Source of the DNA: Agromyces protaetiae
GTDB taxonomy: Bacteria > Actinomycetota > Actinomycetes > Actinomycetales > Microbacteriaceae
DNA: 64,000 nucleotides
Direction of reading: 5' to 3'
Assembly (NCBI RefSeq): GCF_004135405.1
Contig: NZ_CP035491.1
Span: 3,162,001 to 3,226,000, forward strand
The notes under the pieces are model-generated. The model did no database searches, was not told the DNA's origin, and worked only from the letters and a program-made list of their open reading frames with translations. Of this stretch, positions 32,751 through 46,355 are shown in pieces (position 1 is the stretch's first letter; each line of letters starts with the position of its first letter). Position numbers and translations under genes: made by a program.

Positions 32751-33892
32751 CTACGCCGTGACGACCGTCGGCGAGCCGACCGCGGCGTCGGGCCCCATCT
32801 CGTCGGCGAGACGGTTGGCCTCGGCGATGAGGGTCGCGACGATCTCGGACTCGGGCACGGTCTTGATGACCTCGCCCTTGACGAAGATCTGGCCCTTGCC
32901 GTTGCCCGATGCGACGCCCAGGTCGGCCTCGCGGGCCTCGCCGGGGCCGTTCACGACGCAGCCCATGACGGCGACGCGGAGCGGCACGCTCATGCCCTCG
33001 AGGCCGTCGGTGACATCGTTCGCGAGCTTGTACACGTCGACCTGCGCGCGGCCGCACGACGGGCACGAGACGATCTCGAGCTTGCGCTCGCGGAGGTTCA
33101 GCGACTGGAGGATCTGCAGGCCCACCTTGACCTCTTCGGCGGGCGGCGCCGACAGCGAGACGCGGATGGTGTCGCCGATGCCTTCGCCGAGGAGGATGCC
33201 GAACGCCGTCGCGCTCTTGATCGTGCCCTGAAAGGCGGGGCCCGCCTCGGTGACGCCGAGGTGGAGCGGCCAGTCGCCGCGCTCGGCGAGGAGCCGGTAG
33301 GCCTTCACCATGACGATGGGGTCGTTGTGCTTGACCGAGATCTTGAAGTCGTGGAAGTCGTGCTCCTCGAAGAGCGAGGCCTCCCAGACGGCCGACTCGA
33401 CGAGCGCCTCGGGCGTCGCCTTGCCGTACTTCTGCAGCAGTCGCGGGTCGAGCGAGCCCGCGTTGACGCCGATGCGCAGGCTCACGCCCGCCTCTTTCGC
33501 GCGCCTGGCGATCTCGCCGACCTGGTCGTCGAACTTGCGGATGTTGCCGGGGTTCACGCGCACCGCGGCGCACCCCGCGTCGATCGCCGCGTACACGTAG
33601 TTCGGCTGGAAGTGGATGTCGGCGATGACCGGGATCTGGCTCTTCTTGGCGATGATGGGCAGCGCCTCGGCGTCGTCGCGGCTCGGCACCGCGACGCGCA
33701 CGATGTCGCAGCCCGACGCCGTGAGCTCGGCGATCTGCTGAAGCGTCGCGTTGATGTTCGTCGTGGGCGTCGTCGTCATGGATTGCACGCTCACTGGGGC
33801 GTCGCCGCCGACGAGCACCTTGCCCACCTTGATCTGGCGCGACTTGCGTCGGGGGCCAGGACTTCGGGGATTTTCGGCATTCCGAGATTCAC
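32751..33892 (-). CDS. ispG: 4-hydroxy-3-methylbut-2-en-1-yl diphosphate synthase, 5' frameshift
   Basis: IspG makes HMBPP in the MEP isoprenoid pathway. The iron-sulfur motif [11 protein letters not shown] and the third Cys and Glu in [11 protein letters not shown] are present, as are [20 protein letters not shown] and [12 protein letters not shown]. The natural N terminus [14 protein letters not shown] is encoded from the GTG at 33892, but in another frame. One extra G in the run 33,851-33,855 would join it to [11 protein letters not shown]. The restored length is about 380 aa. dxr and the protease, its usual neighbours, are 22 kb upstream on the same strand. Confidence 0.9.
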
Positions 33893-33989: not shown

Positions 33990-35057
33990 TCAGCCGATGA
34001 TCGCGAGGAGCGCCGCACGGAACTCGTCGGGCCGTTCGAGATGCGGCGAGTGACCGCAACCCTCGAGTGCGAGCTCGGTGAACGCCCCGCCGCGCTCGGC
34101 GTACCGCTCGAGCAAGGCCCTCGTCTGGGCGAGCATGGGCTGCGGCGGAGCGACGTCGACGCCGGGCCATCCGGGCACGATGCCCGCCGCACCCAGCTGG
34201 TTGAAGTCGAAGAACGACGCGTCGCCGACGATCGCGTCGAGCGCGCCGTGGATCCACAGCACGGGCGGTTTCGGCTCGACGTCGACGATCGCAGACGTGT
34301 CGAAGACGGTCGGGGCCATGGTGTTGAGCACACCGCTCACGCCCGGGGCGAAGCCCGGCCAGTGCTCCGACGCCGTCGACGTCCCGGGGTAGTTGTCGTC
34401 GCCGATCGCCGTCGTGAGCATCGACTCGACCCAGAGGCCTTCGAACTCCGAGACGAACCCGGGTGCGACATAGCTCGACCGGTAGACGGCGAGGGGCGAG
34501 GTGCCGGCCTCGTCGGTGCGGTCGCCCGCGGCGAGCCGCGCGACGAAGTCGGGGTTCACTCCCCCGCCGCCCGTGCCGGCGCCGTCGTCGCTGAGCAGCG
34601 ATCCGTCGAGGGCTGTGCCGCCGAACCCGTACGGCGACACCGTCGACTCGAGCGTGAGGCTCGCGACGAGCTCGGGCCGGTCGAGCAGGAGCTGCATGAT
34701 GACTCCGCCGCCCATGCTCCAGCCGACGAGGTGCGCGGCGCCGATCTCGAGCGCGTCGAGGACGGAGGCGACATCGTCGCTGAAGTCCCGGATACCCCGG
34801 CTCGCGTCGACCGGCAGCGTCTCGCTGCCGCCGAATCCGCGGAGGTCCACAGCGAGCGCCCGCACTGCCGTCGGCAGCGCCGACATGAGCGGGAGGAAGA
34901 AGAGCGAGCTCGAGACGTTGCCGTGGACGAACACGACGGTCGGGGCGGATGCCTCGTCGCCCGTGCCTGCCGCTCGCTCGAAGACCTGCGCGGCATACCG
35001 CGGGGTCGTGACGAGCCGCGACGAGACGGTCGGGAACGCGGTGCGGATGTCGGTCAT
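33990..35057 (-). CDS. Alpha/beta hydrolase, last gene of the catabolic operon
   Basis: The 355-residue alpha/beta hydrolase has the oxyanion region [12 protein letters not shown], the nucleophile elbow GWSMGG, the acid near [16 protein letters not shown] and the final His in [14 protein letters not shown]. An unusually long lid of about 110 residues (from [10 protein letters not shown] to VSGVLNTM) covers the active site. The ATG overlaps the CoA-transferase B stop (ATGA). Ester or oligomer hydrolysis supplying the pathway is an inference. Confidence 0.8.
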
Positions 35058-35704
35058 GCCGGTCCTCCTTCGAGAGCGACGCGAAGCGGCGGCTCGGTCG
35101 CGGCGGCGACCTCGTCGACGGTGACGCCGGGGGCGAGTTCGACGAGCACGAGCCCGTCGTGCGTGACGTCGATGACGGCGAGGTCGGTGATGATGCGGTC
35201 GACGACGCGCTTGCCCGTGAGCGGGAGCGAGCACTCGTCGACGATCTTGGGGCTTCCGTCGCGCGCGACGTGCTCCATGAGGACGATGCGTCGGCGGGCG
35301 CCGTGCACGAGATCCATCGCGCCGCCCGGGCCCTTCACCATCTTCCCCGGGATCATCCAGTTCGCGAGGTCTCCCGCCGCCGACACCTGCATGGCGCCGA
35401 GGATCGCGGCGTCGACCTTGCCGCCGCGGATCATGCCGAAGCTCGTCGCCGAGTCGAAGAACGCCGCGCCCGGCAGCACCGTCACGGTCTCCTTGCCGGC
35501 GTTGATGAGGTCGGGGTCGACGGCGTCCTCCGTCGGGTACGGCCCGACGCCGAGGATGCCGTTCTCGGACTGCAGCACGACCGTGACCCCGTCGGGCACG
35601 TAGTTCGGCACGAGCGTCGGGAGCCCGATGCCGAGGTTGACGTACGCGCCGTCCTCGAGTTCGGCCGCAGCCCTCGCCGCCATTTCGAATCGCGTGAGCG
35701 CCAT
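35054..35704 (-). CDS. scoB: 3-oxoacid CoA-transferase subunit B
   Basis: Subunit B carries the catalytic Glu that forms the CoA thioester. It is seen here in [14 protein letters not shown], preceded by [19 protein letters not shown] and followed by [20 protein letters not shown]. The length of 216 aa is standard. It lies 3 nt after subunit A. With 3-hydroxybutyrate dehydrogenase and thiolase nearby, acetoacetate is the expected acceptor, with succinyl-CoA as the usual donor. A 3-oxoadipate role is less likely because no aromatic-ring genes are present. Confidence 0.9.
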
Positions 35705-35707
35705 CGG

Positions 35708-36481
35708 TCAGTTCCCTTCTCGCACGGTGCGCCGTTCGATGCGCTTCTCGATGCCCCGCCCGACCTCGACGACGCGGTCCACGAAGATGCCCGGCAGATG
35801 CACGGCGTCGGGGTCGAGAGCGCCCGGCTCGACGAGCTCTTCGACCTGCGCGATGCACACGCGCCCCGCCATCGCCGCGAGGGGCGAGAAGTTGCGCGCC
35901 GACTTGTCGAAGACGAGATTGCCGTGCCGGTCGCCCTTCAGGGCGTGCACGAGCGAGTAGTCGGTCGTGATGGCCTCTTCGAGCACGAACTCGCGCGGCT
36001 CGCCGCGCACGTCGAACACCGCGGTGGGCTTGGCGGGCGAGGCATCCGCGATGCTGCCGTCCGCCGCATAGCGGCGGGGCAGGCCGCCCTCTGCGACCTG
36101 GGTGCCGACGCCGGTCTGCGTGTAGAACGCCGCGATCCCCGAGCCGCCCGCGCGGAGCTTCTCGGCAAGCGTGCCCTGCGGGGTCAGTTCGAGTTCGAGC
36201 TCCCCCGAGAGGTACTGCCGCTCGAACTCCTTGTTCTCGCCGACGTACGACGACGTCATCTTGCGGATGCGCCCGGCCGCGAGCAGCACCCCGAGCCCCC
36301 AGTCGTCGACGCCGCAGTTGTTCGAAACGACCGACAGGTCGCCCGTGCCGCGGTCGAGGAGCGCGCGGATGAGCACCATGGGGATGCCGCACAGGCCGAA
36401 CCCGCCGACCGCGAGCGACGCGCCCTCGGGGATGTCGGCGACCGCGTCGGCGGGCGATGCCACGGTCTTGTCGAGTGTCAC
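35708..36481 (-). CDS. scoA: 3-oxoacid CoA-transferase subunit A
   Basis: Subunit A, 257 aa, shows the family motifs VGGFGLCGIPMVLIRALL, VSNNCGVDDWGLG, YVGENKEFERQYLSGELELE and GTLAEKLRAGGSGIAAFYT. It pairs with the B subunit to move CoA onto acetoacetate or another 3-oxo acid. The GTG start at 36481 overlaps the stop of the upstream hydrolase (GTGA). Confidence 0.9.
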   Translation of the reverse strand: MTLDKTVASPADAVADIPEGASLAVGGFGLCGIPMVLIRALLDRGTGDLSVVSNNCGVDDWGLGVLLAAGRIRKMTSSYVGENKEFERQYLSGELELELTPQGTLAEKLRAGGSGIAAFYTQTGVGTQVAEGGLPRRYAADGSIADASPAKPTAVFDVRGEPREFVLEEAITTDYSLVHALKGDRHGNLVFDKSARNFSPLAAMAGRVCIAQVEELVEPGALDPDAVHLPGIFVDRVVEVGRGIEKRIERRTVREGN

Positions 36482-37404
36482 GGTGCGACCTCCTTGTCGA
36501 CGGTGATGGATGCCTCGTCCGAGGCGAGTGCGAGACGGGCGCGCAGCACCGGGGTGATGTGCTGCAGGCCCGCCTCGGTCATGAGGATCGTGTAGTGGTT
36601 GACGTCCGGCGCCTCGTGCACCCGCAGCGCCGGAAGGCGTCGCGCCCAGTCGTCGGCCGCAGCCGACGGGTAGAGCGGTTCGGGCTGGTCGAGGAGTCCG
36701 CGCTCGGCGCGCACGAAGTCGAGCGGCGGAACGAGGGCGGCGAGCGCGTCGAGGTATCCCGCGCTGCCGTCGAGTTCGAGCGCATTCACGCCCACAGCGT
36801 CGGCGTTCGACGCCGACCGCAGCTCGGGCGCGACGCCGTCGAGGTCGTAGCGCACATAGTCTTCGATCGCGTCGTTCCAGTAGGGCCCGAGGCCCGGATG
36901 CCTCCGCCAGAACCCGATGTATTCCGAGGCCGTGTCGAATCGCATCGAGAGCCGTTCGACGGCGGGGCCGAGGACGGCCTGCGGCACGTCTTCGGGGGCG
37001 ATGCCCGCGGGCGGCGGCAGCGGGAGGCCGCCGTCGATGAGCACGAGTCCCGCGACCCGATCGGGGTGCCGCTCGGCGAACCGCACCGAGACGAACGCGC
37101 CCATCGAGTGGCCGACGACGAGCGCACGGTCGATGCCGCGGTCGTCGAGCACTCGGGCGAGGTCGTCGGCGTGGTCGACGAGGCGGTAGGGCGCGGGGAG
37201 CGCATTGCTCCGGCCGCGGCCGCGAAGGTCGGGGGCGACGATGCGCACGTCGTCGAGCTCTTCGGCGACGAGGTCCCAGGCCCGGTGGCTCGCCGTGATG
37301 CCGTGCACCGCGAGGAGCGCCGGCCCCGAGGCATCCGCTCGCCATTCGCCGCCCGCGAGGGCGCCGCCCGCGACGGGCGCGCCGAACGTCTCGTAGCCGG
37401 TCAT
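36478..37404 (-). CDS. Alpha/beta hydrolase of the catabolic operon
   Basis: The 308-residue hydrolase carries AVHGITASHRAWDLVAEEL, DLRGRGRSNALP, the nucleophile elbow GHSMGAFVS and the late His in VNHYTILMTE. It resembles esterases and enol-lactonases. It sits between the 3-hydroxybutyrate dehydrogenase and CoA-transferase genes with 4-nt overlaps on both sides, so it is made in step with them. It may release the hydroxy acid from an ester or dimer. The substrate is unproven. Confidence 0.82.
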   Translation of the reverse strand: MTGYETFGAPVAGGALAGGEWRADASGPALLAVHGITASHRAWDLVAEELDDVRIVAPDLRGRGRSNALPAPYRLVDHADDLARVLDDRGIDRALVVGHSMGAFVSVRFAERHPDRVAGLVLIDGGLPLPPPAGIAPEDVPQAVLGPAVERLSMRFDTASEYIGFWRRHPGLGPYWNDAIEDYVRYDLDGVAPELRSASNADAVGVNALELDGSAGYLDALAALVPPLDFVRAERGLLDQPEPLYPSAAADDWARRLPALRVHEAPDVNHYTILMTEAGLQHITPVLRARLALASDEASITVDKEVAP

Positions 37405-38147
37405 CTCGCGCTCCACCCGCCGTCCATCGTGTAGCTCGCGCCCGTCACCATGCGCGAGTCGGCGCCCGCGAGCCACAGCGCGAGGCTCGCGACCTCGGCG
37501 GGCTCCACGAGGCGTTTGATCGCCGACTCGGTCAGCATGATGCGGTCGACGACCTCGGCCTCGGGGATGCCGTGCACCTTCGCCTGGTCGGCGATCTGCT
37601 TCTCGACGAGCGGCGTACGCACGTAGCCCGGGTTGATGCAGTTCGAGGTGACGCCGTGCGGTCCGCCCTCGAGCGCCGTGACCTTCGAGAGTCCCTCGAG
37701 GCCGTGCTTGGCCGCCACGTACGCCGACTTGTACGGCGATGCGCGCAGTCCGTGCACGCTCGACACGTTGATGACACGGCCGAAGCCGCGTTCGTACATG
37801 CCGGGCAGCGCCGCCCGGATGAGCAGGAACGGCGCCTCGAGCATGATGCGCAGGAGGAGCGAGAACCGTTCGGGCTCGAACTCCTCGATGGGTCGCACAT
37901 GCTGGATGCCCGCGTTGTTGACGAGGATGTCGGCGTCGAGGGAGAGGTCGCCGAGCGCAGCGGTGTCGCCGAGGTCGACCGCCCAGGCCTCGCCGCCGAG
38001 CCCCGCGGCCGCCTGCGAGGCCGCTTCGGCGTTGAGGTCGGCGATGACGACGTGCGCCCCCGCCTCGGCGAACGCGCCCGCGATCGCGAGCCCGATGCCG
38101 CTCGCACCGCCAGTCACGATCGCACGCTTTCCGGTCAGATCGGTCAT
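37401..38147 (-). CDS. bdhA: 3-hydroxybutyrate dehydrogenase
   Basis: This SDR oxidises (R)-3-hydroxybutyrate to acetoacetate with NAD. The 248-residue protein shows VTGGASGIGLAIAGAFAEAG, NNAGIQHVRPIEEFEPERF, the active-site SSVHGLRASPYKSAYVAAKHG-like region, and NCINPGYVRTPLVEKQIADQ. The C terminus GASYTMDGGWSAR is also typical of bacterial BdhA rather than generic SDRs. It overlaps both neighbours by 4 nt, downstream of a TetR gene and upstream of a hydrolase and the CoA-transferase. Confidence 0.88.
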   Translation of the reverse strand: MTDLTGKRAIVTGGASGIGLAIAGAFAEAGAHVVIADLNAEAASQAAAGLGGEAWAVDLGDTAALGDLSLDADILVNNAGIQHVRPIEEFEPERFSLLLRIMLEAPFLLIRAALPGMYERGFGRVINVSSVHGLRASPYKSAYVAAKHGLEGLSKVTALEGGPHGVTSNCINPGYVRTPLVEKQIADQAKVHGIPEAEVVDRIMLTESAIKRLVEPAEVASLALWLAGADSRMVTGASYTMDGGWSAR

Positions 38148-38812
38148 GACGCCTCCCCGTTCATGCTCCAGCCGGGACGCCCGAGGGCGCCGCCGATGAA
38201 GCGCATCATCTCGTCGAGCACGTGCTCGGGCACGGCGCTCGTTCCCGCGGCCGTCGGATCGGCGTCGCCGCCGCCCTCGCCGTTCGCGGAGTCTCCCCAC
38301 AGCACCCAGCGCATGCCGATCATCTCTCCGATGCCCATGAGCGCCCACGCCGCGACGGTCGGATCGATGTCGCCGATCTCGCCGTCGGCACGCGCCTGCT
38401 CGAGGCCCGCGATGTACCCCTCGACGATGCGCGTGTAGTGCAGACGCAACGCGTCGGGCGAGACGAACTCGGCCTCGCGCACGACGCGGTAGAGCGCGGG
38501 GTGCTCGGCCGTGAACCGGAAGAACGCCGCGAACCCGGCCCGCTCGGCCTCGAGGCGCGTCGTCGCATCGGCCGACCCCTCGCTCATCGCCTGGCGCACG
38601 CGCCGGTTCAAGTCTTCGACGAGTTCGTCGAAGAGGTCGAGTTTCGAGGCGAAGTAGAGATAGAAGGTGCCCTGCCCGACGCCTGCGCGGTCGGTGATGC
38701 GCGAGACGGATGCCTCGGTGTACCCGAGTTCGGCGAACACGTGCTCGGCGGCCTCGAGGATGCGCCTGCGCGTCTGCTCGCCGCGCGCCGTGCGCGGAGT
38801 CGTCGCGGTCAT
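38144..38812 (-). CDS. TetR-family regulator of the catabolic operon
   Basis: The 222-residue TetR protein has a clear helix-turn-helix, ARGEQTRRRILEAAEHVFAE then ITDRAGVGQGTFYLYFASK, and a C-terminal helical ligand domain with FFRFTAEHPALYRVVREAEF. It is embedded in the operon with ATGA overlaps on both sides, which suggests autoregulation. The inverted repeat at 45,086-45,107, between the operon head and the divergent thiolase, is a candidate site. An acyl-CoA or acid effector is plausible from context. Confidence 0.88.
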   Translation of the reverse strand: MTATTPRTARGEQTRRRILEAAEHVFAELGYTEASVSRITDRAGVGQGTFYLYFASKLDLFDELVEDLNRRVRQAMSEGSADATTRLEAERAGFAAFFRFTAEHPALYRVVREAEFVSPDALRLHYTRIVEGYIAGLEQARADGEIGDIDPTVAAWALMGIGEMIGMRWVLWGDSANGEGGGDADPTAAGTSAVPEHVLDEMMRFIGGALGRPGWSMNGEAS

Positions 38813-40362
38813 GCGATCCCCTCCCGGATGGCCTGCGCGCGGGCCGCGAGCACGCGCCGCAGTGGCTTGTTCGCGGTGGACCGCGGGATCTCGTCGACGA
38901 AGTGCACTTCGCGCGGCAACTTGAACGATGCGAGCTGGGGACGCGCGAAGTCGAGGAGCTCGTCGGCGTCGGTATGCGTACCGGGTCGCAACACGACCCA
39001 TGCCGACCCGGCCTCGCCCCAACGCTCGTCGGGGACGCCCACGACCGCGACGTCGGCGACGGCCGGGTGCGCTGCGAGCACCGACTCGACCTCGGCCGGG
39101 GCGACGCCCTCGCCGCCCGAGATGTAGAGGTCCTTCAGCCGGTCCACGATCGTGAAGTACCCTGCGGCGTCGCGCCGCACGAGGTCGCCCGTGTGCAGCC
39201 AGCCGTCGCGCAGGGCGAGCGCCGTCGCGTCGGGGTCGCCCAGGTATCCCGCGAAGACGCCGGGGCCGGCGACCAGGAGCTCGCCCTCGGCGGGGCCGTC
39301 GAGCCGCTCGCCCGTCACGGGGTCGGCGACGGCGACGTCGACGTGCGGGTAGGGAGTGCCCGCTGACCCGACGCGGTCGCGTGCGTGGTCGTCGGGCAGG
39401 CACAGCACGTTGGGCGAGGCCTCGGTGAGCCCGTAGCCTTGCGTGAGCGCGACGCCCCTCGCATGCCACGTGCGGAGCAGCGCGGGCGGCATGGGCGCGC
39501 CGCCGACGACCGCGTGTCCGAGGCTCGACAGGTCGGCGCGTTCGAAGTCGGGGTGCTGCGCGAGGAAGAGGTAGCTCGCGGGCACGCCCATCATCGTCGT
39601 GATGCGCCGCTCGGCGATGAGGTGCAGAACGCGTCCCGGGTCGAAGGTCCGCTCGAGGACGACCGTCGCACCCGTCCACCACGCGAGGAGCGGTTGGATG
39701 TTCCATCCCCCGACGTGGAACTGCGGCATGACCGAGAGCACGATGTCGCCAGGTGCGATCGCTGTCGTCTTCGAGAGCGAGAGATTCGTCCAGAAGCAGT
39801 TCGCGTGGGTCAGCACCGCGCCCTTCGGCCGCGACGTCGTGCCCGACGTGAAGATCACGAGGAGCGCGTCGTCGTCTGCGACGTCGGTGCGGGCGGATGC
39901 CTCGGCGTCGCCGTCGCCTGCACGCGCGGCACGAGGCATCCGCTGCTCGACGCCGTGGGCGCCGAGTTCTGCGACGGGCACCCGTCGCGGGGACCGCTCG
40001 AGGGTCGCCCGCGCGAGCGTCGCGAACTCGTCCTCGACGAGCAGGAGCGCGGGCTCGGCGATCTCGAGCTGCTCGGCGAGCTCGCGCGGCGAGAGCCGCC
40101 ACGACAACGGCACGAGCGCGAGCCCGGCCTTCGCGCACGCGAAGAACAGCACGACATGATCGGCGCTGTTGCCCGTGAGGGTCGCGATGCGGTCGCCGAT
40201 GCGGTACCCGGCCTCGCGGAACGCCGACGCGAGCCGCGCCGCGCGAGCGTCGAGGTCTCGGTAGGCGAGCACGACGCCGCGATCGTCGATCGCGATCCGG
40301 TCGGGGGTCGAGAGCGCCCGGTCGGAAGTCCAGCGCCCGAGGGTGTGCAGTCCGTCAGGCAT
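38809..40362 (-). CDS. Acyl-CoA synthetase (AMP-forming), medium-size ligase
   Basis: The 517-residue adenylate-forming ligase shows the P-loop FTSGTTSRPKGAVLTHANC, the A5 region GYGLTEASP, the A7 GDLVRRDAAGYFTIVDRLKD and the C-terminal lysine in IPRSTANKPLRR. It activates a carboxylic acid to its CoA thioester. In the raw sequence it is in frame with the upstream permease without a stop. I set the start at the ATG at 40362, since MPDGLHTLGRWTSDRAL is a natural ligase N terminus. A missing base before it would give the permease a stop overlapping this ATG. Confidence 0.86.
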   Translation of the reverse strand: MPDGLHTLGRWTSDRALSTPDRIAIDDRGVVLAYRDLDARAARLASAFREAGYRIGDRIATLTGNSADHVVLFFACAKAGLALVPLSWRLSPRELAEQLEIAEPALLLVEDEFATLARATLERSPRRVPVAELGAHGVEQRMPRAARAGDGDAEASARTDVADDDALLVIFTSGTTSRPKGAVLTHANCFWTNLSLSKTTAIAPGDIVLSVMPQFHVGGWNIQPLLAWWTGATVVLERTFDPGRVLHLIAERRITTMMGVPASYLFLAQHPDFERADLSSLGHAVVGGAPMPPALLRTWHARGVALTQGYGLTEASPNVLCLPDDHARDRVGSAGTPYPHVDVAVADPVTGERLDGPAEGELLVAGPGVFAGYLGDPDATALALRDGWLHTGDLVRRDAAGYFTIVDRLKDLYISGGEGVAPAEVESVLAAHPAVADVAVVGVPDERWGEAGSAWVVLRPGTHTDADELLDFARPQLASFKLPREVHFVDEIPRSTANKPLRRVLAARAQAIREGIA

Positions 40363-41442
40363 CCGTCGCCCCTCCGGCTCGGCCGGGTGCTGCTTGCGGC
40401 CCGTGCGGATGCGGTTCGGCAACCCGGCGATACCGCCGGGGAGGAAGAGCACGACGAGCACGAAGAGCGTCCCGAGGATGAACAACGGCTCGGACAACGG
40501 CACACGGAGCACATCGGGCAGCGCCGCGATCGCGTCGGAGCCCGCGAGCGCCGTGAGCCGCTGATCGAGCAGTGTGTAGACGATACCGCCGACGATCGCA
40601 CCCCACCGGTAGCCGACGCCGCCGAGGACGACGATGACGAGGATCGTGAGCGTGAAGTCGGCGGTCGCGATCCGCGGTGCCGCACCCGACTGCAGGAGCA
40701 GATAGCCCATGCCCGCGACCGCCGCGAGCACCGAGGCGACGATGAAGACGAGCAAGCGCACGTTGTAGGGCCGGATGCCGAGCACCCGCACGCGCAGCTC
40801 GTTCTCGCGCGCGGCCTCGGCGACGTGGCCCGCGCGACTCCGCTCGACCCACAGCACGACGAGGTAGACCACCACGAGAATGCCGAGCGCCGTCCAGTAG
40901 AGGTTCCGCGTGTTGACGACGCCGACGAGCTCGGCGGGCACGTGCGTGATGTCGAGCGCGAGACCCTCGTCGCCGCCCGTCGCGCCGCCCGGATTGCGGC
41001 GGATGAGCACCGACCCGGCCTGCGCGAATGCGAGCGTCACCATGGCGAACGAGATGCCCGTGACCCGGAGCGCGAGTGCCCCGACCGTCGCGGCGAGGAC
41101 GAGCCCGAAGACGAGCGTGATCGCGATCGCGAGGACGAACACGAGTCCCGACGGCCACGTGCTCGGCGCGAACGCGTCGAGGGCGACGCCCAGGCCGTAC
41201 GCGCCTGCCGCGAAGAAGAGCGCGTGTCCGAACGAGAGCATGCCGGCGAGGCCGAACATCATGCGGTAGCTGAGCGCGAGCGCCGCGATGAGGAGCGCGA
41301 ACGCGAGCAGCTGCAGGGTGCCGGGCGTGTACGTCGGGCCGGGCAGCACGCCCGGGATCTCGATCGCGAGGAGCGGGAGGATCGCGAGCAGGACGACGAG
41401 CGCGATGCCGCCGCCCGCGGTCAGGAGCGTCTTCTTGGTCAT
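40363..41442 (-). CDS. livM: HAAT-family ABC transporter permease LivM-type
   Basis: This is a second permease of branched-chain amino acid/amide type, with about ten helices. It begins MTKKTLLTAGGGIALVVLLA and has MFGLAGMLSFGHALFFAAGA, NPGGATGGDEGLALDI and VLGGVGYRWGAIVGGIVYTL, all typical of LivM. The frame runs without a stop into the acyl-CoA ligase. If one base is missing near KQHP, the protein would end at 40355 with GGATDA and overlap the ligase start by 8 nt, matching the overlapping style of the operon. Confidence 0.85.
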
Positions 41443-42317
41443 GCCGCCGCCTTCCCGAGGAGTCCGCGCGGGCGGACGAGGAGCACTGCGGCGAGCGCGA
41501 CGACGACCACGAGGTCGCCCGTGCCGCCGAGGTAGAAGTTCGCGAGCTGCTGCAGCACCGCGACGAGGATCGATGCGATCGCGGCGCCCGTGAGCGAACC
41601 GAGCCCGCCGATGACGGTCACGATGAACGCGAAGATCAGCAGGATGCTTCCGAGGTGCGCCGAGACGTAGCCGTAGTAGACCGACGCGAGCACGCCGCCG
41701 AGGCCGGCCGCCGCGCCGCCGATCGCGAACACGAGGGTGAACGCGCGGCGCACGTCGATGCCGAGGGCGGTGACCATGTGCCGGTTCTCGACGCCCGCGC
41801 GGATGATGAGCCCGTAGCGCGTGCGATTCAGGAAGAGCACGATGCCGCCGAGCACGACGAGGGCGCACGCGATGAGGAGGAACCGGTCGTTCGGGATTCG
41901 CGCGCCGAGGATCGTCGTCGTCTCGGTGAGCCAATCGGGTCTCACCGTGTAGATCGGGTCGGTGCCCCAGGTGCCCTCGAAGAGCGCGACGCTTGCGAGC
42001 GAGAGTCCGACGGTCACGAGCGCTTGCTCGATGTGCCGTTCGTAGAGGCGGCGGATGATGAGGAACTCGGTGAGCGCCGCGACGATCGCGCCGACTGCCA
42101 TGCCGACGACTGCGGAGATCGCGAGCCCGAGCCAGGTGCCGTCGGAGACCCGGCGACCGACCTCCCAGCCGAGGAACGCCGAGATCGTGAGGAACGCGCC
42201 GTGGGCGAAGTTCAAGACGCCCATGAGGCCGTAAATGAGGGAGAGGCCGCTCGCGACGAGGAAGTAGAGCGCCCCGAGCCCGAGGCCCGTGATGACGAGG
42301 AGGATGATCGTGTCCAT
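41439..42317 (-). CDS. livH: HAAT-family ABC transporter permease LivH-type
   Basis: This first permease of the importer has 292 aa and eight or more helices: MDTIILLVITGLGLGALYFL, SGLSLIYGLMGVLNFAHGAF (the LivH signature), NRTRYGLIIRAGVENRHMVT and VTVIGGLGSLTGAAIASILV. It overlaps livM by 4 nt downstream, and the livF stop overlaps its start by one base. Confidence 0.92.
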   Translation of the reverse strand: MDTIILLVITGLGLGALYFLVASGLSLIYGLMGVLNFAHGAFLTISAFLGWEVGRRVSDGTWLGLAISAVVGMAVGAIVAALTEFLIIRRLYERHIEQALVTVGLSLASVALFEGTWGTDPIYTVRPDWLTETTTILGARIPNDRFLLIACALVVLGGIVLFLNRTRYGLIIRAGVENRHMVTALGIDVRRAFTLVFAIGGAAAGLGGVLASVYYGYVSAHLGSILLIFAFIVTVIGGLGSLTGAAIASILVAVLQQLANFYLGGTGDLVVVVALAAVLLVRPRGLLGKAAA

Positions 42318-43030
42318 CAGGCGGCCTCCCCCGCGTCGTGCACGCCGAGGTAGCGCTGGATGCGCGCGTCGTCGTCGAGGAGTTCGGATGCCTCGCCCGT
42401 GAACACGACCCGTCCGCCCGAGAGCACGACCACGCGGTCGGCGAGCGCCCGGATGACCTTGAGGTTCTGTTCGACGAGCAGGATCGGCACGGTCTTCGCC
42501 GCTTCGGCGAGCGCGACGGCGACCTCGTCGACGATGCGCGGCGCGAGGCCCTTCGTGGGCTCGTCGACGAGGAGGAGCCGGTTGTCGTTGATGAGGGCGC
42601 GCGCGAGCGACACCATCTGCTGCTGCCCGCCCGAGAGCGTGCCGGCGCGCTGCGCGAGCCGCGCCTCGAGGTCGGGGAAGAGCTCGGCGACGAGCGCCCG
42701 CCGAGGCGAGCGGTCGCGTTCGGCCAGCCGGAGGTTCTCGGCGACCGTGAGCCCGCCGAACACCTCGCGGTCTTCGGGGACGTAGCCGACGCCGAGCTGC
42801 ACGATGCGGTGCGTCGGCAGACGGTCGACGCGACGTCCGCCGAGCACGACCTCGCCGGTGCGGTCGATGAGCCCGAGGACCGACTTGATCGTCGAGGTCT
42901 TGCCGACGCCGTTGCGGCCGAGGAGGGCGGTGACGCCCGTCGCGGCGACGTCGAGCGAGACGTCTTCGACGACCTGTTGCCCGGCGATCCGGCCGGTGAG
43001 TCCGCGGACGGAGAGGATGGGCTCGTTCAC
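42317..43030 (-). CDS. livF: HAAT-family ABC transporter ATPase LivF-type
   Basis: This 237-residue ATPase has Walker A GRNGVGKTSTIKSVLGL, GYVPEDREVFGGLTVAENL, the signature LSGGQQQMVSLARAL and Walker B LLLVDEPTKGLAPRIV. EQN after the Walker B matches the LivF subgroup. The GTG at 43030 overlaps the livG stop (GTGA). Confidence 0.92.
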   Translation of the reverse strand: MNEPILSVRGLTGRIAGQQVVEDVSLDVAATGVTALLGRNGVGKTSTIKSVLGLIDRTGEVVLGGRRVDRLPTHRIVQLGVGYVPEDREVFGGLTVAENLRLAERDRSPRRALVAELFPDLEARLAQRAGTLSGGQQQMVSLARALINDNRLLLVDEPTKGLAPRIVDEVAVALAEAAKTVPILLVEQNLKVIRALADRVVVLSGGRVVFTGEASELLDDDARIQRYLGVHDAGEAA

Positions 43031-43782
43031 AGGCCCTCCCCGAGGTACGCGGATTGCACGGTCGGGTTCGCCATGACGGCCTCCGGGGTGTCGGCGGCGA
43101 GCAGTTCGCCGTGGTGCATGACGGCGATGCGGTCGGCGAGACCGAGCACGACGTCCATGTGGTGTTCGACCATGAGCACGGTGCGACCGCTCGCGTGCAG
43201 GGCGCGGATGACCTCGGTGAGGGCGGGCACGTCTGCGGAGCCGACACCCGCCATGGGCTCGTCGAGGAGGATGAGGGTCGGCTCGGTCGCGATGCACATC
43301 GCGATCTCGACCTTCCGCTTCTCGCCGTGCGCGAGGTCGCCTGCGACGCGGTCGGCCCGACCGGCCATGCCGACCTCGGCGAGTGCGTCGAGTGCGCGTG
43401 CGGACGCGGCATCCGTCGCTTTCGGCGCTCGAAGGACGCTCGTCGCACCGCCGAGCTTCGCCTGGGCGGCGAGGCGCACGTTCTCGAGGACGCTGAGCGC
43501 CGGGAAGAGACTGGATGTCTGGAAGGTGCGGCCGAGGCCCGCATCCGCTCGCCGGTGGACGGGTTCGCCCGTGACATCCCGGCCGGCGAGGAGCACGCGC
43601 CCCTCGGTCGGGCGCACGATGCCCGACACGACGTTGAAGAGCGTCGTCTTGCCCGCGCCGTTGGGGCCGATCACTCCGAGGAGTTCGCCCTGCCGAACGG
43701 TGAGCGACACGTCTTTCAAGATCCGTGCGCCGCCGATCTGCAGGCCGATGTGCTCGAGTTCGAGCACCGCGTGGTCGGTCAT
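43027..43782 (-). CDS. livG: HAAT-family ABC transporter ATPase LivG-type
   Basis: This 251-residue ATPase has Walker A GPNGAGKTTLFNVVSGI, the LivG feature AGLGRTFQTSSLFPALSVLE and Walker B LILLDEPMAGVGSADV. The signature motif reads LAHGEKRKVEIAM, with HGEKR instead of the more usual HGEQR. It is the first gene after the livK hairpin and overlaps livF. Confidence 0.92.
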   Translation of the reverse strand: MTDHAVLELEHIGLQIGGARILKDVSLTVRQGELLGVIGPNGAGKTTLFNVVSGIVRPTEGRVLLAGRDVTGEPVHRRADAGLGRTFQTSSLFPALSVLENVRLAAQAKLGGATSVLRAPKATDAASARALDALAEVGMAGRADRVAGDLAHGEKRKVEIAMCIATEPTLILLDEPMAGVGSADVPALTEVIRALHASGRTVLMVEHHMDVVLGLADRIAVMHHGELLAADTPEAVMANPTVQSAYLGEGL

Positions 43783-43800
43783 GGTTCTCTCTCGTTCGGG

Positions 43801-43828
43801 CCGGCGGCCGCCTCGCGGCGGCCGCCGG
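43801..43828 (-). terminator. Strong hairpin between livK and livG
   Basis: A perfect 12-bp stem, CCGGCGGCCGCC with a TCGC loop, lies 28 nt after the livK stop and 18 nt before the livG start. Partial termination here would let the binding protein be made in excess over the membrane components. Confidence 0.7.
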
Positions 43829-43855
43829 TCGTCGTGGAAGGGCTGGGTGCGCCGG

Positions 43856-45055
43856 TCAGCCCGCGACGGGCGGCGCGACCTCGTCGGCGTCGATCGTCTC
43901 GATGAGTTCGGGCACCCAGTTCGCGCCGTCCTGCACGAGCTTGACCTGGTACATGGGCTGGATGAGCGCGTGGTCCTCGGCGCGCACGGTGACCTCGCCC
44001 TTGACCGACTCGAACGACCAGCCCTCGAGGGCCGCGATCATGCCGTCGACGGTGTCGCCGCCTTCGCGGATCGCCTGCACGATCATCTGCGCCGCGACGA
44101 ACCCGTCGGGCGAGAAGAGGTCGGGCGTCGCACCCGCCGCATCGAGCGACTCGATCATCGCCGCTTCGACGTCGGTGCCCGCAGCGCCGGCGAAGTAGTG
44201 GTTGAGGAAGGAGATGTCGGCGCTCGCGTCGCCGTAGGCGTTGTACGTCGAGACATCCCCGAGGCCCGTGACGACGGGCGTCGACTCGAACACGCCCTGC
44301 TGCTGGAGCGCCGTCCACATCGCGCCCGACGAGGCGCCGGCCCACGCGACGAAGACGAGGTCGGGCTGTGCTGCGAGGAGCTGCTGCGCGAACGGCGTGA
44401 ACTCGGTCGCGTCCTCGGCGACGAGGACCCCCTCGACCGTCGCGCCCTTGCCGCCGAGCACCGCTTGCACGCCCGCGAGGTTGCCCTGGCCGAACGCGTT
44501 GTCCTGGGCGAAGACGACGACCTTCTTGCCGTCGGGGTCGCCGATGAAGGTGCCCGCGGTCGCGACGTCCTGGTAGGTCTGACGACCCGAGCGGAAGGTG
44601 TACTCGTTGACGCCCGTGACGGCGTCGGTCGCCGCGGGGCCCGAGATGTAGAGGATCTTGTTCTGGGCGGCCTGCTCGGCGAGGGTCGTCGCGATGCCCG
44701 AGACGACGGTGCCCGCGATGATCTGGACGCCCTGGCCGATGAGGTCCTTCGCCTTGGCGACGGCGGTGTCGGGATTGCCCTGGTCGTCTTCCCACACGAG
44801 GTCGATCTCGCGGCCGTCGACCGTGCCCGTGCCGTCGGTCGCGTAGTCGAGGCCCGCTTCGAAGCCCGCCGTGTAGGCGGCGCCGTACGCGGCGAGCGGG
44901 CCGGTCTGCGAAGTGATCATGCCGACCGTGACCGGGGCTGCGGCGTCAGCGGTGGCATCACCGCCTCCCGGGGTCGCGGTCGGCGCGCAGCCGACGAGCG
45001 CGAGGGCGGCGACGGCGAGCACCGCCGGTGCCAGGTACTTCCTTGTAACCCGCAT
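43856..45055 (-). CDS. livK: ABC transporter substrate-binding lipoprotein, LivK-type
   Basis: The 399-residue receptor has a lipoprotein signal with lipobox LVGC (Cys23), then a type I periplasmic-binding fold. TVGMITSQTGPLAAYGAAYT, DDQGNPDTAVAKAKDLIGQG and VVFAQDNAFGQGNLAGV place it in the HAAT (branched-chain amino acid/amide/urea) cluster. The ligand is not readable, and the downstream enzymes suggest a carboxylic acid rather than an amino acid. GGAAGAGG precedes the ATG. It heads the operon and is divergent from the thiolase. Confidence 0.9.
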   Translation of the reverse strand: MRVTRKYLAPAVLAVAALALVGCAPTATPGGGDATADAAAPVTVGMITSQTGPLAAYGAAYTAGFEAGLDYATDGTGTVDGREIDLVWEDDQGNPDTAVAKAKDLIGQGVQIIAGTVVSGIATTLAEQAAQNKILYISGPAATDAVTGVNEYTFRSGRQTYQDVATAGTFIGDPDGKKVVVFAQDNAFGQGNLAGVQAVLGGKGATVEGVLVAEDATEFTPFAQQLLAAQPDLVFVAWAGASSGAMWTALQQQGVFESTPVVTGLGDVSTYNAYGDASADISFLNHYFAGAAGTDVEAAMIESLDAAGATPDLFSPDGFVAAQMIVQAIREGGDTVDGMIAALEGWSFESVKGEVTVRAEDHALIQPMYQVKLVQDGANWVPELIETIDADEVAPPVAG

Positions 45056-45085
45056 GATGTGCCTCTTCCAGTGACGACGATGTCT

Positions 45086-45107
45086 AACCTGACAGGTGGT
45101 TCAGGTT
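45086..45107. promoter_or_regulatory. Operator candidate between livK and the thiolase
   Basis: AACCTGA and TCAGGTT form a perfect 7-bp inverted repeat around 8 nt. It lies in the 115-nt divergent region, over the likely promoters of both transcripts. The TetR protein of the operon is the natural candidate to bind it. Confidence 0.6.
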
Positions 45108-45170
45108 TCAGAAACGTACACTAGAGTCAGCGAAGACGCACCGCAACCCCGACGAAGGAGTCAGCCGAAG

Positions 45171-46355
45171 ATGCCCACCACCGATGTCGTCCTCATCGCC
45201 GGATCCCGCACCCCGTTCGGCCGCATCAGCGGCAATCTCGGCGCACTCACGGCCGTCGAACTCGGCACGATCGCGATCCGCGGCGCGCTCGCAAAGGCGG
45301 GCGTCTCTCCCGACGACGTCGACGCCGTCATCCTCGGGCAGGTGCTGCAGGCCGGTGCGGGGCAGAACCCCGCCAAGCAGTCGGCCGTCGCGGCCGGCAT
45401 TCCGTGGCGTGTGCCCGCGACGACCGTCAACAAGGTGTGCCTCTCGGGGCTCGTCGCGATCACCGACGCGGCGCGACTCATCCGCTCGGGAGAGGCCGAC
45501 GTCGTCGTCGCGGGCGGCCAGGAGTCGATGACGAACGCGCCGCACCTGTTGCCGGGCTCGCGCGCGGGCAAGGCGTACGGCTCGTGGGAGCTCCTCGACC
45601 ACGCCGCGAACGACGGCCTCACCGACGCGTTCGACCACGACTCGATGGGCGCCTCGACCGAGCGCTTCAACGCGCGCTACGGCCTCGAACGCCTCGAGCA
45701 AGACGAGATCGCGGCCGCCTCGCACGTGCGTGCGGGCGCTGCGCAGGCCGGCGGCGTCTTCGCCGACGAGATCGTGCCCGTCGAGATCCCGCAACGCAAA
45801 GGCGCCCCGCTCATCGTCGACGCCGACCAGGGCGTCCGCCCCGACTCGACCGTCGAGACCCTCGGAGGCCTCCGCCCGGCGTTCGCCGAGGGTGGCTCGA
45901 TCACGGCGGGCAACTCGTCGCCGCTCTCCGACGGCGCCGCCGCGGTCGTCGTCGCGAGCCGCGCGTGGGCCGAGGCGCGAGGCCTCCCGTGGCTCGCGCT
46001 CGTGGGCGCACCCGGCCAGGTCGCGGGCCCCGACAACTCGCTCCACTCGCAGCCCGCCAACGCGATCGCCGCCGCCCTCGCCCGCGAAGGATGGAACGCG
46101 GAAGACCTCGACCTCGTCGAGATCAACGAAGCCTTCGCCGCCGTCTCGCTGCAGTCGGCCCGCGATCTCGGCCTCGACCACGAACGCGTCAACATCCACG
46201 GCGGAGCGATCGCCCTGGGACATCCCATCGGCGCCTCCGGCGCACGCCTCGCCCTCCACGCCGCCCTCGAACTCTCGCGTCGCGGCGGCGGCAAGGCGGC
46301 CGTCGCATTGTGCGGCGGCGGCGGGCAGGGCGAGGCGCTGCTGCTCTCGCGATAG
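45171..46355 (+). CDS. atoB: Acetyl-CoA C-acetyltransferase (thiolase)
   Basis: The 394-residue thiolase has the acyl-carrying Cys90 (VNKVCLSG), NEAFAAVSL, the catalytic His in GGAIALGHPIGASGAR and the second Cys in ALCGGGGQGEA. It cleaves acetoacetyl-CoA to two acetyl-CoA, or runs in reverse. I chose the ATG at 45171 because AAGGAG lies upstream and MPTTDVVLIAGSRTPFGR is the usual N terminus. It is divergent from the livK operon, whose CoA-transferase would supply acetoacetyl-CoA. Confidence 0.92.
   Translation: MPTTDVVLIAGSRTPFGRISGNLGALTAVELGTIAIRGALAKAGVSPDDVDAVILGQVLQAGAGQNPAKQSAVAAGIPWRVPATTVNKVCLSGLVAITDAARLIRSGEADVVVAGGQESMTNAPHLLPGSRAGKAYGSWELLDHAANDGLTDAFDHDSMGASTERFNARYGLERLEQDEIAAASHVRAGAAQAGGVFADEIVPVEIPQRKGAPLIVDADQGVRPDSTVETLGGLRPAFAEGGSITAGNSSPLSDGAAAVVVASRAWAEARGLPWLALVGAPGQVAGPDNSLHSQPANAIAAALAREGWNAEDLDLVEINEAFAAVSLQSARDLGLDHERVNIHGGAIALGHPIGASGARLALHAALELSRRGGGKAAVALCGGGGQGEALLLSR

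Follow-up and report, generated by a model that had tools for sequence, protein, structure and literature searches.

The DNA considered here (the window, a 64,000-nucleotide stretch of contig NZ_CP035491.1 from the 3.68 Mb, single-contig genome of Agromyces protaetiae) contains at 33990-46355 a compact locus encoding a HAAT-type importer (LivKGFHM), an acyl-CoA ligase, a TetR-family regulator, a predicted (R)-3-hydroxybutyrate dehydrogenase (BDH), a 3-oxoacid CoA-transferase (ScoAB), two alpha/beta hydrolases and a divergent thiolase. Comparison with related sequences indicates that the locus is likely to be a dedicated system for the import and use of extracellular breakdown products of poly-3-hydroxybutyrate (PHB). 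A dedicated import-and-use system for 3-hydroxybutyrate or its oligomers had been suggested by the initial annotation of the window; that suggestion gains support from co-occurrence of the genes in relatives, linkage to depolymerase genes, the dehydrogenase and a regulator site, while the substrate itself is still inferred.

According to the proposed scheme, a depolymerase, either the cell's own or a neighbour's, would release (R)-3-hydroxybutyrate and short oligomers. LivK would capture (R)-3-hydroxybutyrate and, most likely, short oligomers, for import by LivHMGF. Inside the cell, hydrolase 1 (hyd1) would split oligomers or esters to (R)-3-hydroxybutyrate, with help in this lineage from the PhaZ-like hydrolase 2 (hyd2). 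BDH would then oxidise (R)-3-hydroxybutyrate to acetoacetate, ScoAB would move CoA to acetoacetate from succinyl-CoA, and the thiolase would yield two acetyl-CoA. The ligase would provide a second entry, as it may activate 3-hydroxybutyrate or acetoacetate directly with ATP and CoA. TetR would repress livK, and perhaps the thiolase gene, from a palindrome until released by a pathway metabolite. The parts of the locus are listed below, with window positions and family profile matches.

43856-45055, minus strand: livK, HAAT-type substrate-binding protein (PF13458, 222.5 bits, over the cut-off)
43027-43782, minus strand: livG, ATPase (PF00005 and PF12399)
42317-43030, minus strand: livF, ATPase, GTG start (PF00005)
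41439-42317, minus strand: livH, permease (PF02653)
40355-41442, minus strand: livM, permease (PF02653; 3' end set by comparison with relatives)
38809-40362, minus strand: acyl-CoA ligase, AMP-binding (PF00501, 293 bits, and PF13193)
38144-38812, minus strand: tetR-family regulator (PF00440)
37401-38147, minus strand: bdh, predicted (R)-3-hydroxybutyrate dehydrogenase (TIGR01963, 316.2 bits, cut-off 307.05)
36478-37404, minus strand: hyd1, alpha/beta hydrolase (PF00561)
35708-36481, minus strand: scoA, 3-oxoacid CoA-transferase subunit A, GTG start (TIGR02429, 232.9 bits, cut-off 128.5)
35054-35704, minus strand: scoB, 3-oxoacid CoA-transferase subunit B (TIGR02428, 328.4 bits, cut-off 243.55)
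33990-35057, minus strand: hyd2, alpha/beta hydrolase, distant PhaZ relative (NF050089, 104.3 bits, cut-off 300)
45171-46355, plus strand: divergent thiolase, acetyl-CoA acetyltransferase type, ATG start (TIGR01930, 413.3 bits, cut-off 240.55)
45086-45107, no strand: palindrome AACCTGA-N8-TCAGGTT, a candidate TetR operator lying between the livK and thiolase genes

Open reading frames and family profiles confirm the twelve minus-strand genes and the divergent thiolase of the initial annotation, and its remark that the junctions after livG are nearly all stop/start overlaps holds for eight of the nine measurable ones, which overlap by 1-4 nt. The overlap is 4 nt at livG/livF, livH/livM, ligase/tetR, tetR/bdh, bdh/hyd1, hyd1/scoA and scoB/hyd2, and 1 nt at livF/livH; scoA and scoB, separated by 3 nt, form the only non-overlapping pair. 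A gap of 73 nt separates livK from livG, and ispG begins 15 nt past the end of hyd2 (33990), counting its open frame as it stands.

The products of bdh, scoA, scoB and the thiolase gene each score over the cut-off of a curated family. All 13 PDB sequences listed for bdh at E<=1e-40 are named hydroxybutyrate dehydrogenases, and (R)-3-hydroxybutyrate dehydrogenase is accordingly its predicted activity. The nearest solved relatives of scoB are succinyl-CoA:3-ketoacid CoA-transferases, and that of the thiolase matches in function. The dehydrogenase also accompanies the importer at the genome level: a TIGR01963 match (E<=1e-70) is present in 33 of 33 Agromyces genomes with livK, in one copy each (32 over the cut-off), vs nine of 27 without livK (p 5e-9, phylogeny ignored; at most 36 candidates per genome were scored, making absences lower-bound statements). 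Elsewhere among the actinomycetes, bdh and a GAF-PucR regulator gene stand convergent to liv-hyd1 (L168, L170, L188, L189, L191, L192, L194, L195 and others), and scoAB adjoins livK in 12 of 21 stretches from Streptomycetaceae. For the ligase the nearest solved relatives are 8weu/8wev, the two nearest being a fatty-acyl-CoA synthase and a feruloyl-CoA synthetase.

Orthologues of livK occur in 33 of 60 Agromyces genomes and in at least 33 of 299 sampled Microbacteriaceae, distributed over 18 of 85 genera (two of these 33 are Agromyces). With a Streptomyces LivK as query, matches were found in at least 84 of 249 Streptomycetaceae and at least 26 of 394 genomes of the class. In the Microbacteriaceae, Streptomycetaceae and class searches the first 4-7 candidates per genome were scored, and absences are again lower-bound statements. 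Loci were fetched for 27 of the 31 new Microbacteriaceae matches, for 21 of the 84 Streptomycetaceae (spread over the identity range and chosen before depolymerase genes were looked up), for all 19 new matches of the class-wide search and for five of six in one further search with the same scoring limit (G470 left out). Gene counts rest on tblastn because a simple codon-usage gene caller misses genes (e.g. in L142, L158 and L202-L205). The resulting set of 102 comprises loci found via livK, livM or the ligase, and excludes seven chosen via bdh.

The 31 fetched Agromyces loci all share the same gene order, and 30 of them include ispG within the stretch. Four of the 31 (L049-L052) have no ligase and tetR, and two of these have also lost hyd2. 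Among other Microbacteriaceae, all 27 fetched loci contain livKGFHM and hyd1 with the order kept; some are without scoAB, bdh, hyd2, an adjacent thiolase or ligase and tetR, and in L159 and L160 the thiolase gene has moved to the 3' end. Because the order is kept in all of these Agromyces and other Microbacteriaceae loci, the arrangement is far beyond chance, and the co-occurrence in relatives on which the initial annotation had proposed to rely is borne out, here and in wider actinomycetes. Of the 102 loci, 98 have hyd1, 80 bdh, 65 scoA, 61 tetR, 60 the ligase and 54 hyd2, making hyd1 the most constant partner of the importer. The pairing of livKGFHM with hyd1 recurs across actinomycetes; even in the small, low-GC genomes of L202-L205 it is found, alongside a more distant bdh relative (40-44%). 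The ligase was found in none of the 21 Streptomycetaceae stretches. A rule that each locus keeps either bdh or the ligase fails, as 19 of the 102 stretches have neither.

The constancy of hyd1 bears on the cargo, suggesting that oligomers or esters are among the imported compounds. Ser100 of a GHSMG motif and the C-terminal His270 are invariant in hyd1 relatives, and its predicted model has a predicted local distance difference test score (pLDDT) of 95.1. A search of PHROGs gave a generic esterase as its only match.

The importer is a complete HAAT-family set: a binding protein of the Peripla_BP_6 kind, two BPD_transp_2 permeases (LivH and LivM) and two ABC ATPases. LivK is probably a lipoprotein, because its Cys23 is nearly invariant among relatives. 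When its profile is compared with solved proteins, RPA4397 of Rhodopseudomonas palustris (3n0x, 3nnd) stands out at 7e-68, followed by the next solved protein at 2.5e-28 and Escherichia coli LIVBP at 1.5e-15. The predicted LivK model (mean pLDDT 89.5) superimposes on RPA4397 (3n0x) with Z 43.6 and a root-mean-square deviation of 2.6 over 355 residues at 32% identity; the fold matches that follow include binders of the aromatic acids 4-hydroxybenzoate and vanillate, and such structure searches name folds, not functions. In E. coli LivJ a Glu presumably holds the amino group of the ligand; no acidic residue is conserved near this position when 17 family members are aligned with LivJ/LivK, in a part of the alignment that is ambiguous. 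A HAAT importer for such a substrate had been called unusual in the initial annotation. This overstates the case, because in R. palustris a ligand screen found HAAT binding proteins that bind other amino acids or aromatic, fatty or dicarboxylic acids, and ligands beyond branched-chain amino acids are common there, according to the available text of PMC3223731.

The link to PHB comes from depolymerase genes near livK in other families. It was assessed in 39 livK-bearing genomes (21 of the 84 Streptomycetaceae and 18 others from the class-wide search), with the random expectation computed from gene numbers and genome sizes, phylogeny ignored. Matches over the cut-off of NF050058, the extracellular short-chain-length polyhydroxyalkanoate (PHA(scl)) depolymerase type 1 family, occur in 29 of these genomes (41 genes). 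In 17 of the 39 the distance from livK to a depolymerase-family gene is at most 15 kb, vs 0.17 expected at random; it is at most 10 kb in 14 and at most 20 kb in 19. The linkage is seen in three families (f5, f94 and f8). The secreted type 1 PHA-depolymerase-family gene lies inside the locus of Catelliglobosispora koreensis (L104) and that of Nocardiopsis alkaliphila (L110), and in L104, L175 and L196 it stands 3' of the liv genes on the same strand. L196 has the operon type of A. protaetiae, livKGFHM-ligase-tetR-hyd1-depolymerase, with the depolymerase directly following, and in L175 livKGFHM-hyd1-depolymerase is accompanied by divergent scoAB. All nine linked genes scanned score over the NF050058 cut-off (seven of seven in one scan, two of two in another), the lowest of the seven being that of L196 at 180 bits, and an fn3 domain over the cut-off is present in three of those seven (L168, L175 and L176).

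The only family member found in the A. protaetiae genome scores 144.2 bits over half of the NF050058 model, not reaching the cut-off in any one frame, and has a membrane-anchor-like N-terminus. Among Microbacteriaceae with the operon, 28 of 33 have no depolymerase over the cut-off. Within Agromyces, the idea that a depolymerase of the same genome tracks the operon fails, with PF10503 over its cut-off in six of 33 genomes with livK and six of 27 without.

The regulator is tied to the locus by its presumptive site. A perfect inverted repeat, AACCTGA-N8-TCAGGTT, lies between livK and the thiolase gene in A. protaetiae. When its core, ACCTGA-N8-TCAGGT, was sought with up to two mismatches within 150 nt upstream of livK, it was present in 63 of 65 tetR-bearing sequences (53 of them perfect; the window included) vs one of 44 without tetR, and in 0.18% of shuffled sequences. 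An extended regulon was sought by scanning the whole genome, but no second site turned up when one mismatch was allowed; this locus is therefore most likely the only one on which TetR acts. The full site is missing from the Microbacteriaceae loci that have no tetR (L049-L052 and L141), of which L141 retains one half-site. L163 and L164 carry a tetR relative with no site by the core test, and L163 has half-sites at -28 and -14 when another livK start is used. L051 and L052, from which tetR has been lost, have another palindrome, near-perfect and of the ATGTGCAGAA-TGCACAT type, about 140 nt before livK.

One feature of the A. protaetiae sequence is best read as an artefact. There, livM and the ligase gene form a single uninterrupted open reading frame of 877 amino acids (38809-41442, minus strand); each of the 27 ligase-bearing Agromyces loci compared has two separate genes here, with an 8-nt overlap (ATGCCTGA), livM of the relatives ending in this sequence. 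The A. protaetiae sequence is 1 nt shorter than its relatives just 5' of the ligase ATG, and the ligase start and a ribosome-binding-like sequence ahead of it remain. Nearby, at 33851-33860 (minus strand), a C-run near the start of ispG is one C shorter than in nine of nine relatives shown, and the true ispG start is therefore out of frame; the sole PHB-depolymerase-family gene found in the genome (1884694-1885143 and beyond) changes frame midway. Because the two genes are separate in 27 of 27 relatives, and because of the ispG indel and the broken depolymerase-family frame, an indel in the assembly is the most likely cause of the fusion. The notion that a LivM-ligase fusion protein couples uptake to CoA activation was rejected in view of the two-gene relatives and the ispG indel.

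Several loci carry additional or substituted genes. An MHS-family symporter relative of the major facilitator superfamily is found in L049 (1951-3309), L050 and L108 (1289-2683), over the TIGR00883 cut-off in L108, below it in L049 and recognised by clustering only in L050; L049 and L050 are both Agromyces loci without ligase and tetR. This relative may be an additional carrier for the acid that the importer takes up. In L163 (10480-14777) relatives of liv, ligase and tetR are followed by genes for a KASIII-like protein, a MaoC dehydratase and a short-chain dehydrogenase/reductase, possibly a route through crotonyl-CoA. In L061 (11737-12498), L159, L197 and L200 hyd1 and scoA are separated by an IclR-family regulator gene on the opposite strand. 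LivK relatives on alphaproteobacterial plasmids (about 30% identity; L209 and L210) have liv genes and an alpha/beta hydrolase together with a divergent AMP-binding/MaoC-like/enoyl-CoA hydratase/TetR set, through which the same acid might be used by way of a CoA ligase. Other plasmid relatives are in different contexts or unannotated in the collection searched (H7, H9).

A number of observations weigh against PHB breakdown products as the cargo. In A. protaetiae itself the depolymerase-family copy is split across two frames. In ten of the 39 genomes no depolymerase gene passes the cut-off, and of the 29 genomes with such a gene, 12 have it at a distance from livK exceeding 15 kb. Among solved proteins, feruloyl and acetylxylan esterases are the closest to the L104 depolymerase. 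Near the operon, no depolymerase was found in any of 60 fetched Microbacteriaceae stretches (by tblastn, at a threshold that missed the diverged one of L196), and no NF050058 match in the Microbacteriaceae genome scan adjoins livK. NF050058 over the cut-off is only weakly associated with livK in this family (five of 33 livK-bearing genomes vs nine of 266, p 0.012, phylogeny ignored), and PF10503 passes its cut-off in six Agromyces genomes with livK and six without. On the enzyme side, hyd1 received no specific family assignment in profile and structure searches, bdh is missing from 15 of the 21 Streptomycetaceae stretches, and 15 of the 19 stretches with neither bdh nor ligase are Streptomycetaceae. 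As for the importer, six of the 17 aligned LivK members have an acidic residue a few positions from the LivJ Glu, and more distant relatives stand in other contexts (L162, with an acetamidase and another ligase; a Rhodococcus plasmid), because of which the wider LivK family is not uniform.

These points leave room for other explanations. The importer could carry the monomer only, (R)-3-hydroxybutyrate or acetoacetate, with the hydrolases having other roles, for instance on intracellular oligomers, esters or lactones. The monomer suffices for BDH, ScoAB and the thiolase, hyd2 is dispensable (54 of 102 loci), an MHS-family symporter relative is present in three loci (L049, L050 and L108), and the products of characterised depolymerases are monomers in some cases and monomers, dimers and trimers in others (PMC11893044, available text). 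However, hyd1 is found in 98 of 102 loci vs 80 for bdh, suggesting that the cargo needs hydrolysis first, and import of the monomer alone is judged unlikely. It is decidedly improbable that the importer carries another hydroxy or oxo acid or an ester of one, such as 3-hydroxyvalerate or a plant or microbial 3-hydroxybutyrate ester, with PHB not the natural source. The 28 of 33 operon-bearing Microbacteriaceae without a depolymerase over the cut-off, the breadth of the ligase family and the different accessory genes of L162 and L163 would fit such a cargo, but secreted depolymerase-family genes stand beside the same importer in three families.

An operon for aromatic acids (hydroxycinnamates), in which a HAAT importer works with a feruloyl-type esterase and a feruloyl-type CoA ligase, would account for the 4-hydroxybenzoate and vanillate binders among the fold neighbours of LivK, for the feruloyl-CoA synthetase among the two nearest solved relatives of the ligase and for the feruloyl esterase nearest to the L104 enzyme. 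However, the conserved set includes no hydratase/lyase, vanillin dehydrogenase or ring-cleavage gene (the non-conserved neighbours being mostly unannotated), and bdh, scoAB and an acetoacetyl-type thiolase do not fit; nor do the NF050058 scores of all nine linked genes scanned, three of them with fn3. This reading is very improbable. The least credible is an ordinary branched-chain amino acid importer placed beside ketone-body genes by accident: the livKGFHM set and its family names are standard, but the linkage to hyd1, bdh and depolymerase genes extends over several families, the LivK profile favours RPA4397 (7e-68) over E. coli LIVBP (1.5e-15), and no acidic residue seems to be conserved at the presumed amino-group site.

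If the locus does serve the uptake of PHB breakdown products, the Microbacteriaceae that carry the operon may be secondary consumers of products that others release, because no depolymerase was found near the operon in their 60 stretches. A broader proposal, that LivKGFHM with hyd1 is a widespread actinomycete system for uptake of 3-hydroxybutyrate oligomers, by which depolymerase-bearing streptomycetes and their kin harvest what they release themselves, and Agromyces and other Microbacteriaceae, mostly without a depolymerase over the cut-off, use what others release, is tentative and has slightly less than an even chance of being right.

PHB serves in nature as a storage polymer and in commerce as a biodegradable plastic, and its production by Agromyces indicus is reportedly the topic of one paper. 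The enzyme steps are all known already. The initial annotation knew of no description of this exact combination, and none was found in a search of open-licence papers, in which several queries were narrow; nor was any paper found that pairs a HAAT importer with this hydrolase and PHB depolymerases. A keyword search of the available text of two recent reviews of PHA degradation gave no instance of 'transporter', nor, in that of PMC11893044, any of 'transport', 'uptake' or 'ABC'. If the proposal is true, LivKGFHM would be the first named importer for PHB breakdown products within the literature searched and would supply a step, uptake, that accounts of PHB breakdown often pass over. Many proteins in a family named for branched-chain amino acids would gain a function, soil bacteria that live on PHB products without a depolymerase could be recognised, and the TetR-palindrome pair could serve as a sensor of PHB breakdown.

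Among known systems, the locus is closest to ketone-body catabolism, all three steps of which (BDH, SCOT/ScoAB and acetoacetyl-CoA thiolase) are encoded in A. protaetiae. The cluster differs from plain ketone-body catabolism in having, within one operon-like arrangement, genes for a HAAT importer, a TetR regulator and a CoA ligase and for two alpha/beta hydrolases. Among solved proteins hyd2 is nearest to the PHB depolymerase PhaZ of Bacillus thuringiensis (8ynv/8ynw; 1.1e-28, the next other protein being at 1.5e-16), which we take to be an intracellular enzyme. In contrast to the intracellular native PHA (nPHA(scl)) depolymerases of NF050089, hyd2 scores 104.3 bits against a cut-off of 300 and is not filed with them because of this. 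On the extracellular side, the proven PHB depolymerase of Streptomyces ascomycinicus (PhaZSa) has a signal peptide, a type 1 catalytic domain, fn3 and a binding domain, and its product is (R)-3-hydroxybutyrate (PMC3741128, available text). The linked genes of L168, L175 and L176 resemble it in their signal-like N-terminus, type 1 catalytic domain and fn3, and the window itself has no gene of this extracellular PHA(scl) type 1 kind. For RPA4397, the closest solved counterpart of LivK, no ligand was found in the open-licence literature searched; unlike RPA4397 as known, the actinomycete LivK members have a link to bdh and, for some of them, also to depolymerase genes.

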